Of a stretch of DNA of 64,000 nucleotides, positions 5,525 to 60,902 are shown piece by piece (the first letter of the stretch is position 1; each line of letters opens with the position of its first letter). The stretch spans positions 310,001 to 374,000 of the forward strand of contig NZ_REFY01000001.1 of NCBI RefSeq assembly GCF_003841485.1, read 5' to 3'. The notes under the pieces are model-generated. The model was given only the letters and a program-made list of their open reading frames with translations. It searched no databases and was not told where the DNA came from. Position numbers and translations under genes: made by a program. The DNA comes from Natrarchaeobius halalkaliphilus (GTDB lineage: Archaea; Halobacteriota; Halobacteria; Halobacteriales; Natrialbaceae).

Positions 5525-5610
5525 GGTTGTGATTACTTAGGAAAACGGAAGCCTACCGAGCGGATAAAGCCTTCGAACCGCGAATTCGCTCGAGGGGGAC
5601 AACGATCGCC

Positions 5611-5634
5611 GATAAACCGTTACGGCAATCCGTA
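5611..5634. repeat. Degenerate half copy of the palindromic repeat
   Basis: This stretch reads TAAACCGTTACGGCAATCCGTA in its core, close to the right arm of the full element 120 bp away (TAAATCGTTACAGTAATCCGTA). No matching left arm is visible beside it. It looks like the remnant of a third insertion or duplication of the same repeat family. Confidence 0.5.
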
Positions 5635-5676
5635 CAAACCGGTGCAGCCGCTACGATATCGGAATACGGAGTCCTC

Positions 5677-5758
5677 ATACGGATTACTGTAAATCATTGC
5701 CGGCGCACCCGCGACCCGGGCGGCGGGTGCGCCGGTAAATCGTTACAGTAATCCGTAT
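5677..5758. repeat. 82-bp palindromic intergenic repeat, copy 1
   Basis: Two 36-bp arms (5677-5712 and 5723-5758) pair across a 10-base loop. The outer 16 bp (ATACGGATTACTGTAA and its complement) and the inner 13 bp (GCGGGTGCGCCGG) are perfect; five mismatches lie between them. A related element sits at 58446-58526 with the same ends but a different inner stem. The right end includes the last base of the stop codon of the small HTH gene on the minus strand, so in the RNA it would form a strong hairpin immediately after that gene and could act in termination or 3'-end stabilisation. No ORF is inside. Confidence 0.85.
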
Positions 5759-5994
5759 CACTCGACCGCGGGAATCGTCACGTACTCGTCGCCGCGTTTC
5801 TCGACGAGTGCGTCGCTCGAGAGCGTATCGAGAACGCTCAGGATCGACATTTTGTTCATCGCAAGCGTCCGGTTCAGATCGGTCAGCGTAGCGCCGCTTG
5901 TCGCGTCGAGGTAGAGATACACGAGCTTTCCCTGGGGGGAGTCGAGCTCGGTCGGGATTACGGTGGATCGGTCGGTCGTGAGTTGCTGTTCCAT
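5758..5994 (-). CDS. Small winged-helix-like protein
   Basis: 78 aa. Residues 20-75 have the look of a MarR/TrmB-type winged helix: a helix KLVYLYLDATSG, then the turn-recognition pattern LTDLNRTLAMNKMSILSVLDTLSSDALVEKRGD, ending in a wing-like YVTIPAV. It would be a DNA-binding protein or a regulator subunit without a sensor domain. A TATA-like box (CTTATATCGA, 6021-6030 on the minus strand) lies about 30 bp upstream, so the transcript is probably leaderless. Targets are unknown. The strong palindromic repeat directly follows the stop. Confidence 0.7.
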   Translation of the reverse strand: MEQQLTTDRSTVIPTELDSPQGKLVYLYLDATSGATLTDLNRTLAMNKMSILSVLDTLSSDALVEKRGDEYVTIPAVE

Positions 5995-56108: not shown

Positions 56109-57263
56109 TCACTCGAACCGGGCGTCGACGACGACGTGAGCGACGCCGGCACTGTGACTTTTGACCCGCCGCCTATCGAGCACCGTCAGCTCACGTTCGG
56201 CTGTGTCAGCCGCGCTCTCGAGGCGCTCGAGCGGCCGATCCCAGAGACGGGGTTCCGGCGTCGCCTCGTGATAGTGGACGAGGCCGCCTGGGACCAGCGC
56301 CTCGAGCGCAGCCGGGAGAAACTCGGCGGCCTCGTCGGATCGCGTTCCGCCTCCCCGTCCACACTCGTCCTCTGGGGGGGCCGCCTCCGTCGAGCGCCCG
56401 TAATAGCCCATCACGACCCGATCGGCCTCGACGTCGGCTGCGATCTCCCGACAGTCGGACATGTAGGCGTCGACGCGCTCGCTGACGTCGTTCAACATCG
56501 CGTTCTCGACGAGATAGCGAAACGCGGTCGGATTGATCTCGGTCGCAGTGACGTCCGCGCCGGCCCGGACGAGCGGCAGGGTGAAGTAACCGATGCCGGC
56601 GAACATGTCGAACACCCGCTCTCCCGGCTCGCAGACGTCCCCCATCCGAGCGCGTTCGGCCTGGTTTCCGGGCGAAAACATCACCGCCGCAGGATCGAGT
56701 CCGTACCGCGTCCCGTGTTCCGTGTGGACCGTCTCAGTGTCCGGATCGCCGGCGAGCAGTCGCGTCCTCGGTTCACGATGGGTCCCCGCCACACCATCGT
56801 TTGCGATCCCCTCGTCGGCCAGGACGCTGTCGGCCTCGCCGTGAACCTCGAGTAACGCATCGGCCAGCTCGAGTTCGTCGGGACAGTCCGCTGGAACCGA
56901 GACCATCACGACCGAGCCGATGACGGCCCACGAACTCGGGACCGTCGCGAGGTCGTCGGTACTCCACCCGCGCGCTCCGAGAACGTCCTCGACGTCGGTG
57001 AGTCGCACCTCGGGGTCGAGCTGACGAACCACCTCGAGTACCGGCGTCTCCGATGGCGGCTCCGTCACCGGCAGCGCGATCGTTCCCGACTCGGTCTCGC
57101 GAACGCGCCTCGAGTCGTCGTAGACGCCTTCGGCGCGCAGCGATTCGATGGCCGTCTCCGTGCGAGGTTTCTCCACGACTGCGGCCAGCGCCGTCTCGCC
57201 GTCGGTCCGCCCGACGACGTCGCGGACGGACGGTGACTCGCTCGGGAAATCGTCGTCAGACAT
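56109..57263 (-). CDS. Trm5/Tyw2-family tRNA-modifying SAM enzyme
   Basis: 384 aa. An N-terminal substrate-binding half (about 1-200) and a C-terminal Rossmann half with motif I DMFAGIGYFTLPLVRAGA (about 228-245), the acidic residue in ATEINPTAFRYLVENA, and DRVVMGYYGRSTE where Trm5 enzymes have NPP. That replacement resembles Tyw2/Taw2, which transfer the aminocarboxypropyl group in wyosine synthesis at tRNA-Phe G37, rather than the m1G methyltransferase; the choice is tentative. It overlaps NMD3 by 8 bp. Confidence 0.82.
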   Translation of the reverse strand: MSDDDFPSESPSVRDVVGRTDGETALAAVVEKPRTETAIESLRAEGVYDDSRRVRETESGTIALPVTEPPSETPVLEVVRQLDPEVRLTDVEDVLGARGWSTDDLATVPSSWAVIGSVVMVSVPADCPDELELADALLEVHGEADSVLADEGIANDGVAGTHREPRTRLLAGDPDTETVHTEHGTRYGLDPAAVMFSPGNQAERARMGDVCEPGERVFDMFAGIGYFTLPLVRAGADVTATEINPTAFRYLVENAMLNDVSERVDAYMSDCREIAADVEADRVVMGYYGRSTEAAPPEDECGRGGGTRSDEAAEFLPAALEALVPGGLVHYHEATPEPRLWDRPLERLESAADTAERELTVLDRRRVKSHSAGVAHVVVDARFE

Positions 57264-58401
57264 CGTCGTCGGGAAGGATGTGCAGACCGGCGCGGCTTTT
57301 CAACACGGGAACCGTCTCCGAGCCGGGATCGAAGTAGTCCGGTCGGGAGACGGTCGTGGCGCGGTAGGTCTCGGGATCGAGAATCTGCACCGCGTTTTCG
57401 TCTTCGACCGTGACGACCGTCGTCTCGTCGGCGTCGTCGCGGGTGCCGAGCGCTCGCGCGTCCGGGGACGTTCCCTCCTCGTAACTCGCCTCGTAACGCT
57501 CGCCGGTCGTCACCCGAACGCCTTTCAGGTTGCCGCGTGCGCTGCGAACCAGGACCGGGCCACCGTCGTCGTTCTCGAGGTCGATGACGTCCCCCGACGT
57601 GTACGGTGGCAGGCGAACCGCGAAGGTGACGCGATACACTTCGTTGCCGTCTTCGTCCTCGGTGACGAGGGTTTCTGCGTCGGTGACCGTTCCGCCGAAC
57701 TCTTCGACGGTCTTGTTCGCGATCTTTTTACCGATCTTGTTGGTCGAGACCTTGATATTCAGCCCGTCGTCGACCTCACTGATTTCGGTCACGAAAGCGT
57801 TTCGATCGCCGGTTGCTACCATGTCAGCGACGATTTCGTGGGCGATCTCTTTGGCGCGGTCGGTCTCTTCGGACGCGGGGGTTCTACCCTCGGCACGGAT
57901 CTGGACGATACTCGCGTAGTAGTCCCCGGCGATCCGGCCACAGCGGGTACAGGTCTGTCGGGCGATCCTGACGAGCACGGTGGCTTCCTCGTCGACGGGC
58001 GTCCCTCGGACGACGCCGGTGAAATAACAGTGCATTCGGATCGTGTTCTCGTCGACTTGCTCGGGTTCGACCTGCCAGGCGACGTCCGCGACGTCGACGT
58101 GAACGGCGAGTGCGTCGCTCACCTCGTCGATCGCGACGTCGGTGTAGTCCTCCGCACCGACGTCGACCCATCGCCTCCCCCGGTGGACCGCGCCACACCG
58201 GGCACAGACCCGGACGTCGATCCGATCCGGCGCGTCGACGAAGTCGAAGTCATCGAAGTAACACGAATCACAGAGTTCGACCTCGGACCCCGGCCGAAGG
58301 GGGTCCGACGCGACGTCGTCGCCTTCGGCGGTCGCCTCATCCGCTGACCGCTCCGCCACGGGGTCCCCACACCGAGGACAGAACGCGCGCGACTCACTCA
58401 T
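57256..58401 (-). CDS. nmd3: NMD3-family ribosome-biogenesis protein
   Basis: 381 aa. Four CxxC pairs in the N-terminal half (CPRCG at 8, CDSC at 44, CARCG at 66, CTRCG at about 150) form the treble zinc ribbons of NMD3. The C-terminal half has the SH3/OB-like region (VSTNKIGKKIANKTVEEFGG). In eukaryotes NMD3 exports the 60S subunit; archaeal homologs act in large-subunit maturation. It is the first gene of an overlapping pair with the tRNA-modifying enzyme. Confidence 0.93.
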   Translation of the reverse strand: MSESRAFCPRCGDPVAERSADEATAEGDDVASDPLRPGSEVELCDSCYFDDFDFVDAPDRIDVRVCARCGAVHRGRRWVDVGAEDYTDVAIDEVSDALAVHVDVADVAWQVEPEQVDENTIRMHCYFTGVVRGTPVDEEATVLVRIARQTCTRCGRIAGDYYASIVQIRAEGRTPASEETDRAKEIAHEIVADMVATGDRNAFVTEISEVDDGLNIKVSTNKIGKKIANKTVEEFGGTVTDAETLVTEDEDGNEVYRVTFAVRLPPYTSGDVIDLENDDGGPVLVRSARGNLKGVRVTTGERYEASYEEGTSPDARALGTRDDADETTVVTVEDENAVQILDPETYRATTVSRPDYFDPGSETVPVLKSRAGLHILPDDDV

Positions 58402-58445
58402 TGATTCCCGTTCGAGTCTGAGGGAGTTAAGCGACGTGTTCTCTC

Positions 58446-58526
58446 ATACGGACTATTGTAAGCCATTGCCGGTGGGACCGCGACCCGTCTGCGGTCCCAG
58501 CGGTAAATCGTTACAGCAATCCGTAT
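58446..58526. repeat. 81-bp palindromic intergenic repeat, copy 2
   Basis: Starts ATACGGACTATTGTAAGCCA and ends TAAATCGTTACAGCAATCCG then TAT. Outer arms match copy 1 (5677-5758) at most positions, including TTGCCGG on the left and CGGTAAATCGTTACAG on the right; the inner stem has a different sequence (GGGACCGC paired with GCGGTCCC), so pairing is conserved although the bases differ. It lies 45 bp upstream of the nmd3 start. Confidence 0.85.
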
Positions 58527-58643
58527 CAGACGGTGAGAACTCCAGCCGAAACGGGAGGCTCGATGGATCGAACTCCCGTCGTTCGAGGCCCGGTTTCGAG
58601 CCCGATCGATCCCGTTCGAGCCGGAATCTTCGATCCAGAACCA

Positions 58644-58724
58644 GTGTCAGACGTTCGTCAGACACTGTGTATCGATCCGTGTCAGCCGCTCGTCAGACGG
58701 GGGCTCGTTCCACCGTGTCAGACG
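58644..58724. repeat. Short direct/inverted GTGTCAG repeats at 35-36 bp spacing
   Basis: GTGTCAGACGTTCGTCAGAC (58644-58663) recurs as GTGTCAGCCGCTCGTCAGAC (58679-58698), and GTGTCAGACG again at 58715-58724. Start-to-start distances are 35 and 36 bp. The first copy is itself nearly palindromic (AGTGTC-GACACT ends). This and the palindromic repeat are all that is notable in the 450-bp gap 58402-58851; there is no gene I can support there. Confidence 0.6.
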
Positions 58725-58851
58725 ATACCCTGTCATGTGGTTTCCATGCGAAACGAAGGGGTTGGAAATTCGGGTCGGGTTAGTCTAGAAACACCAATAA
58801 TTACGGCAGCCAAGCACGTCTGAGCGAACTGGTACGTTTATACCGACCGTC

Positions 58852-59225: not shown

Positions 59226-60812
59226 TCAGTTCTGGCCGTTGAGCGTGATGTAGTTGACGCCGATGATTCGCTCGTCTTCGTTGAGTTCGTCCTTGGCCGC
59301 CTCGGGAACCTGTCCGTCGACGTTGTACACCGTCAGCGCCTCGCCGCCGATGGTTTCGCGGGCGTTGAACATGCCAGCGATGTTGACGCCGTGTTTGCCC
59401 ATGACGGTTCCGATGAGGCCGATGACGCCCGGTTCGTCCGTGTTTCGCGTCACGACCATCTTGCCGTGCGGAATGGCGTCGACGCGGTAGCCGTCGACGC
59501 GGACGATCCGAGGATCGTCGCCCGCAAAGAGGGTGCCGTCGACCGAGACCTCCTCGCCCTCGTTTCCGACGGTGACCGAGATCAGGCTCTGGAAGTCCTC
59601 GGCCCGGTGGCTCTTCGATTCGGTGACGTCGACGCCGCGGTCCTCTGCGATCTGTGGGGCGTTGACGGCGTTGACCTGCCACTCGAGCGGTTCGAAGACC
59701 CCCTTCAGCGCGCTCGCGGTGACGAACTCGACGTCCTCGTCCGTAATATCGCCCTCGTAGGCGACCTCGATGCGCTCGATGCGTCCGTCGAGCAACTGGG
59801 CGGCGACCTTGCCGGCGGTGTCAGCGATCTCGATGTACGGCTCGAGACGCGGGAACGCGCTCTCGTCGATCGATGGGGCGTTGAGCGCGTTCGCGACGGG
59901 TTCGCCGGCGAGTGCGGCATCGACCTGTTCCGCCGTCGAGGTCGCGACGTTTTGCTGTGCCGCTTCGGTCGACGCGCCGAGGTGGGGGGTAACGATGACC
60001 CCGTCCTGATCGAGCAACGGCGAGTCCTCGGACAGCGGCTCCTCCGCGAAGACGTCGAGCGCCGCTCCCGCGACCGTTCCGTCCTCGACCTTCGCGGCGA
60101 GTGCGTCCTCCTGGACGATCCCACCGCGGCCGACGTTGACGAGGCGGCCGCCCTCGAGCAACTCGAGTTCGTCCTCACCGATCATTCCCTCCGTTTCGGG
60201 AGTCAGGGGCGTGTGGATCGTCAGGAAATCGGCAGCGTCGAGACAGTCCTCGAACTCGACGAGTTCAGCACCGATCCGGTCGGCGCGTTCCTCGGAAATG
60301 TAGGGATCGAACGCGACGATGTCCATCCCGAGGGAGTCGAGTTTCTTTGCGACCTCCTGGCCGACGCGGCCGAGGCCGACGACGCCGAGGGTTTTGTTGT
60401 CGAGTTCAGCGCCGAGATAGTCGCTTTTTGCCCACTCGCCCGCTTTCAGTCGCGCGTGAGCCTGGGGGATCGAACGCGCGGTCGCGAACGTCATCGCGAC
60501 GGTGTGTTCGGCCGCCGCGCGGACGTTTCCTTCGGGTGCGTTCGCGACGATCACGCCGTGGTCGGTCGCGGCGTCGATATCGATGTTGTCGACGCCGATA
60601 CCCGCGCGTCCGACGATAACGAGTTCCTCGGCGGCTTCGAGCACCGCCTCGGTAACCTCGGTTCCGGAGCGAACGATCAGTCCGTTCGCGTCCGATACCG
60701 CCTCGAGGAGATCCTCGCCCTCGAGTTCGTAGCCCGTTTCGACGTCGTGGCCGGCGTCTCTGAGTACGTCCAGACCCGCGTCCGCGATCGGATCCGTGAC
60801 CAGCACCTTCAT
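59226..60812 (-). CDS. serA: D-3-phosphoglycerate dehydrogenase
   Basis: 528 aa, long-form PGDH. D-2-hydroxyacid dehydrogenase core with VIVGRAGIGVDNIDI, NAD-binding LGVVGLGRVGQEVAKKL (about 142-158), catalytic Arg in NVGRGGIV, Glu in ALDVFAEEP and His in TPHLGASTEAAQ. An intervening domain (about 310-450) and a C-terminal ACT domain (about 455-528, GVIGLIGTVMGKHGVNIAGM) for serine feedback follow. Committed step of serine synthesis; serB lies 2.5 kb away on the other strand. The frame above 60812 is non-coding. Confidence 0.96.
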   Translation of the reverse strand: MKVLVTDPIADAGLDVLRDAGHDVETGYELEGEDLLEAVSDANGLIVRSGTEVTEAVLEAAEELVIVGRAGIGVDNIDIDAATDHGVIVANAPEGNVRAAAEHTVAMTFATARSIPQAHARLKAGEWAKSDYLGAELDNKTLGVVGLGRVGQEVAKKLDSLGMDIVAFDPYISEERADRIGAELVEFEDCLDAADFLTIHTPLTPETEGMIGEDELELLEGGRLVNVGRGGIVQEDALAAKVEDGTVAGAALDVFAEEPLSEDSPLLDQDGVIVTPHLGASTEAAQQNVATSTAEQVDAALAGEPVANALNAPSIDESAFPRLEPYIEIADTAGKVAAQLLDGRIERIEVAYEGDITDEDVEFVTASALKGVFEPLEWQVNAVNAPQIAEDRGVDVTESKSHRAEDFQSLISVTVGNEGEEVSVDGTLFAGDDPRIVRVDGYRVDAIPHGKMVVTRNTDEPGVIGLIGTVMGKHGVNIAGMFNARETIGGEALTVYNVDGQVPEAAKDELNEDERIIGVNYITLNGQN

Positions 60813-60902
60813 GCGCGAGGAACTCGTGCGGAACGGGTAAACCCTTCCGTTGTGTCCGAAGGAGGCAAGAATTACCGTTCCGAACGGATAAATCAAACGC
60901 GT

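Follow-up and report, generated by a model that had tools for sequence, protein, structure and literature searches.

The two hairpins found in the window (the whole 64,000-nucleotide stretch analysed here, from contig NZ_REFY01000001.1 of Natrarchaeobius halalkaliphilus) belong to a dispersed family of mobile elements of about 80 bp. Our best reading is an apparently undescribed superfamily of fully palindromic MITEs, tolerated mainly right behind genes. More specifically, we consider it highly probable that the element is non-autonomous, is moved in trans, has been filtered to gene ends and flips its loop by extrusion. No description of such an element was found in the open-access literature, which is in itself weak evidence of novelty.

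Anatomy and distribution of the element

Copy 1 lies at positions 5678..5757 (80 bp, minus strand, the family orientation being that in which the TGTAAC arm comes first) and was recovered by folding, by a two-arm pattern and by a covariance model. It is enclosed by its target duplication, two TCA triplets (5675..5677 and 5758..5760, no strand assigned), the second of which, TCA on the plus strand, is the TGA stop codon of a 78-aa gene on the minus strand (5758..5994). No Pfam match was obtained for this gene. Copy 2 lies at 58447..58525 (79 bp, minus strand), has an inner stem unlike that of copy 1 and is likewise enclosed by a duplicated TCA target (58444..58446 and 58526..58528, again without strand). 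No stop codon stands against it; its position is the gap between the start of an NMD3-like gene (57256-58401, minus strand) and the stop of a 3-phosphoglycerate-dehydrogenase-like gene (59226-60896, minus strand). At both sites the element proper runs TACGG...CCGTA. The preliminary description had delimited copies of about 82 bp at 5677-5758 and 58446-58526; both hairpins do exist, but the outermost A...T pair that it counted belongs to the flanking TCA triplets.

Folded as RNA, copy 1 reaches -59.2 kcal/mol against a shuffled mean of -26.6 (z -10.2) and copy 2 -43.6 kcal/mol against -22.1 (z -7.1), with 0 of 200 shuffles as good in either case. The arm TACGGATTACTGTAA occurs five times in the window with up to three mismatches, versus 0.28 expected, the matches being both arms of copy 1, both arms of copy 2 and a half copy (5620-5634). 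Both window hairpins are confirmed as real, far beyond chance. The half copy is the decayed right half of another element, with 86% identity to the right half of copy 1 over 28 nt; its extent is 5607..5634 (no strand assigned) rather than the 5611-5634 given before. Rfam returned no match above the gathering score in the window. In the gap behind copy 2, at 58640-58740, a different motif, GTCAGACGTTCGTCAGAC, is repeated with variants, and similar motifs occur at the orthologous place in three congeners.

The anatomy of the element was read from 50 copies picked for difference (48 of the 132 foreign copies described below and the two window copies, restricted to lengths of 79-80). A 15-bp outer stem is followed by seven unpaired columns, a 13-bp inner stem and a 10-column loop, and then the way back, for a total of about 80 columns; the ends read TACGG....YTGTAA and the unpaired 7x7 stretch is conserved. 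This size of about 80 bp is near-constant across families of the order. As the conserved unpaired stretches are asymmetric (approximately TGTAAC-GATTTA-CCGG and, opposite it, CCGG-NAATGAC-TTACA), the element has an orientation.

On a plain MAFFT alignment of these copies, pairing holds in 93.7% of 1399 cells, and two-sided changes are seen in 15 of the 28 stem pairs. Cells changed on both sides number 122, versus 30.5 +/- 6.0 in shuffled data and at most 23 in slid structures; since ten invariant outer pairs are fixed by the search pattern, which also limits column 10 and its partner, the evidence for covariation comes from columns 6-9 (column 6 itself pairing poorly, with 24 of 50 not standard) and from the inner stem. 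The stems are shown to covary, keeping the hairpin while its sequence changes. The hairpin-preserving change of the inner stems that had been noticed between the window copies is thus upheld by these counts. As to whether it reflects compensatory change or replacement of the inner part, it is mostly covariation within one alignable 80-column element, to which the loop, present in both orientations, adds a feature that had not been foreseen.

The N. halalkaliphilus genome (3.51 Mb in 12 contigs) contains 53 forward and 57 reverse matches to the arm with up to two mismatches (control: 0 and 1). The two-arm pattern finds 35 copies there (reversed control: 0), and a covariance model, derived from 22 distinct copies, gives 150 matches that reduce to 101 distinct full-length places. 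The expectation, drawn from the window, of an archaeal family dispersed through the genome in many copies is therefore borne out, and further copies exist in relatives. Clustering is weak: 23 neighbours lie within 5 kb (13.4 +/- 3.2 expected, 7 of 2000 simulations as high), and the counts within 3 kb (13 versus 8.4) and 2 kb (7 versus 5.7) are not unusual. In seven regions with unpaired arms that were inspected in this genome, most such arms are visibly decayed copies and one is a lone arm. One further region (L012, 1436-1609, near C3:552952) holds two differently built hairpin elements separated by 15 bp, the second with decayed ends.

The exact two-arm pattern was detected in 65 of the 392 genomes sampled across the order, while the covariance model finds the element in 96 of 121 genomes of the same family, with matches per genome ranging from none to at least 38. 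In a sample of 392 genomes from the phylum, the exact pattern occurs in 14, all inside the order, and is absent from all 311 classed only as the same phylum. Among the matches listed, carriers belong to Natrarchaeobius, Salinadaptatus, Natrialba, Natrinema, Natronococcus, Natronorubrum, Halorhabdus, Halorientalis and Halostella, and the record titles listed (80 of 120) are all haloarchaeal. IMG/VR contained no full copy of the TACGG form among its viruses. Its 44 single-arm stretches were taken as chance (contigs of 30-50% G+C, without the partner arm), and a single TACTG match was set aside, its contig having 42% G+C and the family interior being absent.

A sister family with TACTG...CAGTA ends has the size and fold of the TACGG family. 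Of 392 genomes of the order, 49 carry it, and 34 of these carriers belong to another taxonomic family. A TNA duplication is present at 25 of 30 loci (24/27 and 1/3), and a stop codon adjoins 10 of 27. In these respects the TACTG family behaves like the TACGG family. One TACTG-type element (L304, 990-2510, genome G109) is apparently split by an insertion sequence, its halves flanking the insert.

Target duplication and position behind genes

The flanks could be analysed for 98 of the 101 copies. A test for target duplications had been proposed from the window, and the element does duplicate its target: a TNA triplet is repeated on both sides of 82 copies (TGA 41, TCA 40, TAA 1). The other 16 lack it (13 without duplication, 2 with TCG, 1 with GA), which we read as decay. 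A foreign set, taken from 120 stretches and 17 loci and limited to copies at least 300 nt from an end with duplicates removed, comprises 132 copies, of which 119 carry the duplication (TGA 60, TCA 58, TTA 1). The empty target is palindromic, approximately CGAC-TSA-GTCG over the 82 sites of N. halalkaliphilus, and its profile recurs at 51 non-stop sites of other genomes. This combination, 3-bp duplications at a palindromic target, is the mark left by staggered double-strand cutting.

Occupied and empty sites were compared at two loci in three congeners. At the locus of copy 1, the orthologous gene end is present in G341 and G220 but no element stands there; at the locus of copy 2, the element is absent from G344 and G341, and a decayed element lies nearby in G220. 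The elements are mobile, given this presence and absence between congeners, the TNA duplication and the palindromic target. With their inverted terminal repeats, they fit the earlier proposal of a MITE-like family. In G344, an element that is much decayed and differs in its inner stem was noticed by eye (L275, about 1400-1490), apparently at the copy 1 gene end; it may have landed there independently or go back to an insertion shared long ago.

Genes around the copies were called with a codon-usage caller trained on the window. In 48 of the 98 copies a gene's stop codon stands directly against the element (47 TGA, 1 TAA); 40 of these 48 keep the TNA duplication, i.e. 40 of the 82 TNA copies. 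The other 50, copy 2 of the window included, are away from a stop codon. The intergenic location described earlier holds for the family, no copy being called inside a gene, although the caller might split a gene interrupted by a copy into two, so that true insertions into genes could be missed. Neighbouring genes are convergent around 39 copies, tandem around 48, divergent around 9 and unclear around 2, and in only two cases do same-strand genes lie within 40 nt on both sides. Among the 132 foreign copies, 72 adjoin a stop codon and one lies inside a gene; of the 119 that have TNA, 68 are at a stop codon. In public annotation of plasmid copies, a CDS ends directly against the element in three of six cases (archease in Natrinema thermotolerans, an FAD-dependent oxidoreductase in Natrialba magadii and a PHP-domain protein in Halomontanus rarus) and not in the other three. 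The element, which marks many intergenic stretches, is without an annotated feature in the six plasmid records inspected.

Stop codons make up 6.6-14.7% of the TSA sites outside genes. Weighted by the target profile, learned from non-stop insertions only, this expectation rises to 26.5% in the window, 27.2% at the other loci and 29.7% at the N. halalkaliphilus loci, the last value being possibly raised by imperfect masking, which works against the stop-codon claim. The observed proportions exceed it (49% in this genome, binomial p 4.9e-5; 55% in other genomes, p 3.4e-11), and do so for the TNA copies alone (p 2.2e-4 and 6.6e-12), with the reservation that these tests treat copies as independent, which shared insertions would violate. 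Sequence preference thus accounts for about half of the stop-codon coincidence, and the remainder is selection or further targeting. The sequence rule CGAC-TSA-GTCG favours stop codons and would thereby allow the element to spread while doing little harm.

This position also invites a rival reading, namely that the elements are kept mainly for host use, the hairpin behind the stop serving as mRNA 3' end, terminator or stabiliser, with the transposon origin secondary. It draws on the proportion of copies at stop codons, about half where sequence preference predicts 27-30%, on the scarcity of copies between divergent genes (9 of 98) and their absence from called genes, and on the covariation of the stems. 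However, the window copies are missing in congeners whose genes do without them, a scan with a bacterial consensus gave no terminator-like site at copy 1, and the element has no clear orientation relative to the gene (24 same versus 14 opposite among 38 orientable stop-codon copies, p 0.14). Moreover, the pattern is explained as well by purifying selection that removes insertions elsewhere. We therefore regard host function as rather unlikely to be the main cause; the occupied and empty congener pairs make the effect of 3' hairpins on archaeal mRNAs testable.

The outer arm also offers an in-frame back-up stop: read in frame with the duplicated TNA it runs TAC GGN NNN YTG, followed at arm bases 13-15 by TAA or TGA (184 of 196 arms), and at C2:648308 of the N. 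halalkaliphilus genome a called gene terminates on it. Because those arm bases are conserved anyway, no conclusion is drawn from this.

Loop orientation and the search for a mobiliser

Loops were compared in those 77 N. halalkaliphilus copies that are exactly 80 nt long; the asymmetry of the outer arms served to orient each copy. Both orientations occur in each of four subfamilies: 11 and 11 (one orientation and its reverse) in subfamily I and 13 and 21 in II, the arms being near-identical in these two, 9 and 2 in III, and 3 and 2 in IV, with three more undecided there and two of the 77 copies in no subfamily. Subfamily II includes several copies whose arms are identical while their loops are exactly inverted. 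The presence of both orientations, seen between copies rather than at one locus, is what would be expected if the hairpin forms in vivo. An inversion that spans the inner stem, which is perfect, and leaves the imperfect outer part unmoved suggests that an extruded hairpin underwent strand switching or recombination. A parallel is reportedly found in chloroplast genomes, with their small hairpin-loop inversions, and the element may preserve in nature a record of how the loop of a DNA hairpin inverts.

A transposase bearing the family's ends was sought among two families, PF01609 (DDE_Tnp_1) and PF13359. The TACGG ends form the terminal-repeat pair of none of the six PF01609 loci of N. halalkaliphilus and of none of 30 foreign ones (from 98 matches in five element-rich genomes), several of the loci examined being cut by contig ends or N runs. 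Copies or pieces lie near four of the foreign loci (L303, L308, L316 and L317). At L308 a single arm runs into other DNA and its partner is absent; this is probably a copy interrupted by an IS. PF13359 had no match in any of seven genomes. A search of 1.5 Mb of overlapping locus sequence for long arm pairs with equal TNA flanks returned only neighbouring short copies and no larger element, and the stretches between five such pairs have no mutual similarity. Among 1053 clustered proteins encoded near copies, no transposase was recognised by eye except a TnpB-like cluster of six proteins from five loci. Thus no autonomous partner appeared among the PF01609 and PF13359 matches and the locus sequence examined, and the missing transposase constitutes a clear search problem. 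IS5-family subgroups of the IS1031 type reportedly make 3-bp TNA duplications, a rule that a literature search did not confirm. The hairpin family has this duplication in common with them; no IS5-type transposase with TACGG ends was present in the 36 PF01609 loci.

The mobile palindromic MITE that we favour would work as follows. A DDE-type transposase acting in trans would cut out or copy the element, which would be pasted at a palindromic site near CGAC-T[C/G]A-GTCG with duplication of the middle TNA, the target, duplication and dispersal being those observed above. Haloarchaeal gene ends such as ...GAC TGA look like this target, and the protein would stay unchanged where the triplet duplicated by an insertion is the stop codon itself; this would explain why about half of the surviving copies directly adjoin a stop codon. 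Selection against other insertions may account for what exceeds sequence preference. In vivo, the inner palindrome would be extruded to form a hairpin, across which the loop could be flipped by recombination or strand switching. If what the transposase sees is a foldable end or hairpin, selection for it would keep the stems paired despite drift. A bolder version, which we find doubtful, has order-wide hairpin transposons without any autonomous member, moved by a host-resident (domesticated) transposase that reads fold as well as sequence; with its built-in preference for TGA stop codons, it would systematically write hairpin 3' ends onto haloarchaeal genes.

REP elements often stand right behind genes. 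Together with the strong palindrome and the loop in both orientations, the place behind genes could suggest REP-like units moved by a REP-associated Y1 transposase, or IS200/IS605 relics (PATE-like), through a single-stranded hairpin. We judge this very improbable: the family has a 3-bp duplication and a palindromic target, whereas IS605-type elements and PATEs are described, in the part of PMC3119063 consulted, as having neither inverted terminal repeats nor target duplications, and the TnpB-like cluster mentioned above is the only one among the 1053 proteins near copies. Least probable of all is an immobile, dispersed host site bound by a chromosome-organising or regulatory protein, which would suit the conserved outer bases (partly fixed by the search pattern), the conserved unpaired stretch and the near-constant length across families of the order, but has against it the target duplications, the palindromic target, the presence and absence between congeners and the variation from 0 to at least 38 matches per genome within one family.

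Comparison with known systems

The features of MITEs are present: inverted terminal repeats, a target duplication of fixed length, a length too short for a transposase, many copies, and both occupied and empty sites. Like prokaryotic MITEs as presented in the portion of PMC10969869 consulted, the element is short and non-coding, has many dispersed copies and would depend on a transposase in trans. According to the same portion, type II MITEs have only their terminal repeats in common with autonomous IS. Unlike prokaryotic MITEs, nearly the whole element is an inverted repeat, its two nested stems enclosing a loop of about 10 nt, its parent IS was not found in the 36 PF01609 loci, and about half of its copies stand against a stop codon.

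Two further systems come from Haloquadratum. The PATEs of Haloquadratum are haloarchaeal, transposase-free and palindromic as well, but the hairpin family has both inverted terminal repeats and a target duplication (compared with PMC3119063 as far as consulted). The SMR-A and SMR-B elements of Haloquadratum walsbyi, of about 80-110 bp, have terminal inverted repeats untraced to a known transposon and an unknown mode of mobilisation, make no target duplication according to the part of PMC3119063 consulted, and in the case of SMR-A target PATEs and IS605-type palindromes. The hairpin family resembles these SMRs in its haloarchaeal hosts, its size, its untraced terminal repeats and its many copies, and departs from them in duplicating TNA and standing behind genes.

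The REP-like character also proposed by the preliminary description could not be retained. Like REP elements (for these and their RAYT transposases see PMC3733652 and PMC2817692), which are palindromic, extragenic and present in many copies, the family is widely dispersed between genes; unlike them, with their 20-40 bp and GTAG or CGTC tags, it consists of units of 79-80 bp with TACGG/CCGTA ends and target duplications. For haloarchaea the family would supply a repeat system that resembles REPs yet is a transposon duplicating its target.
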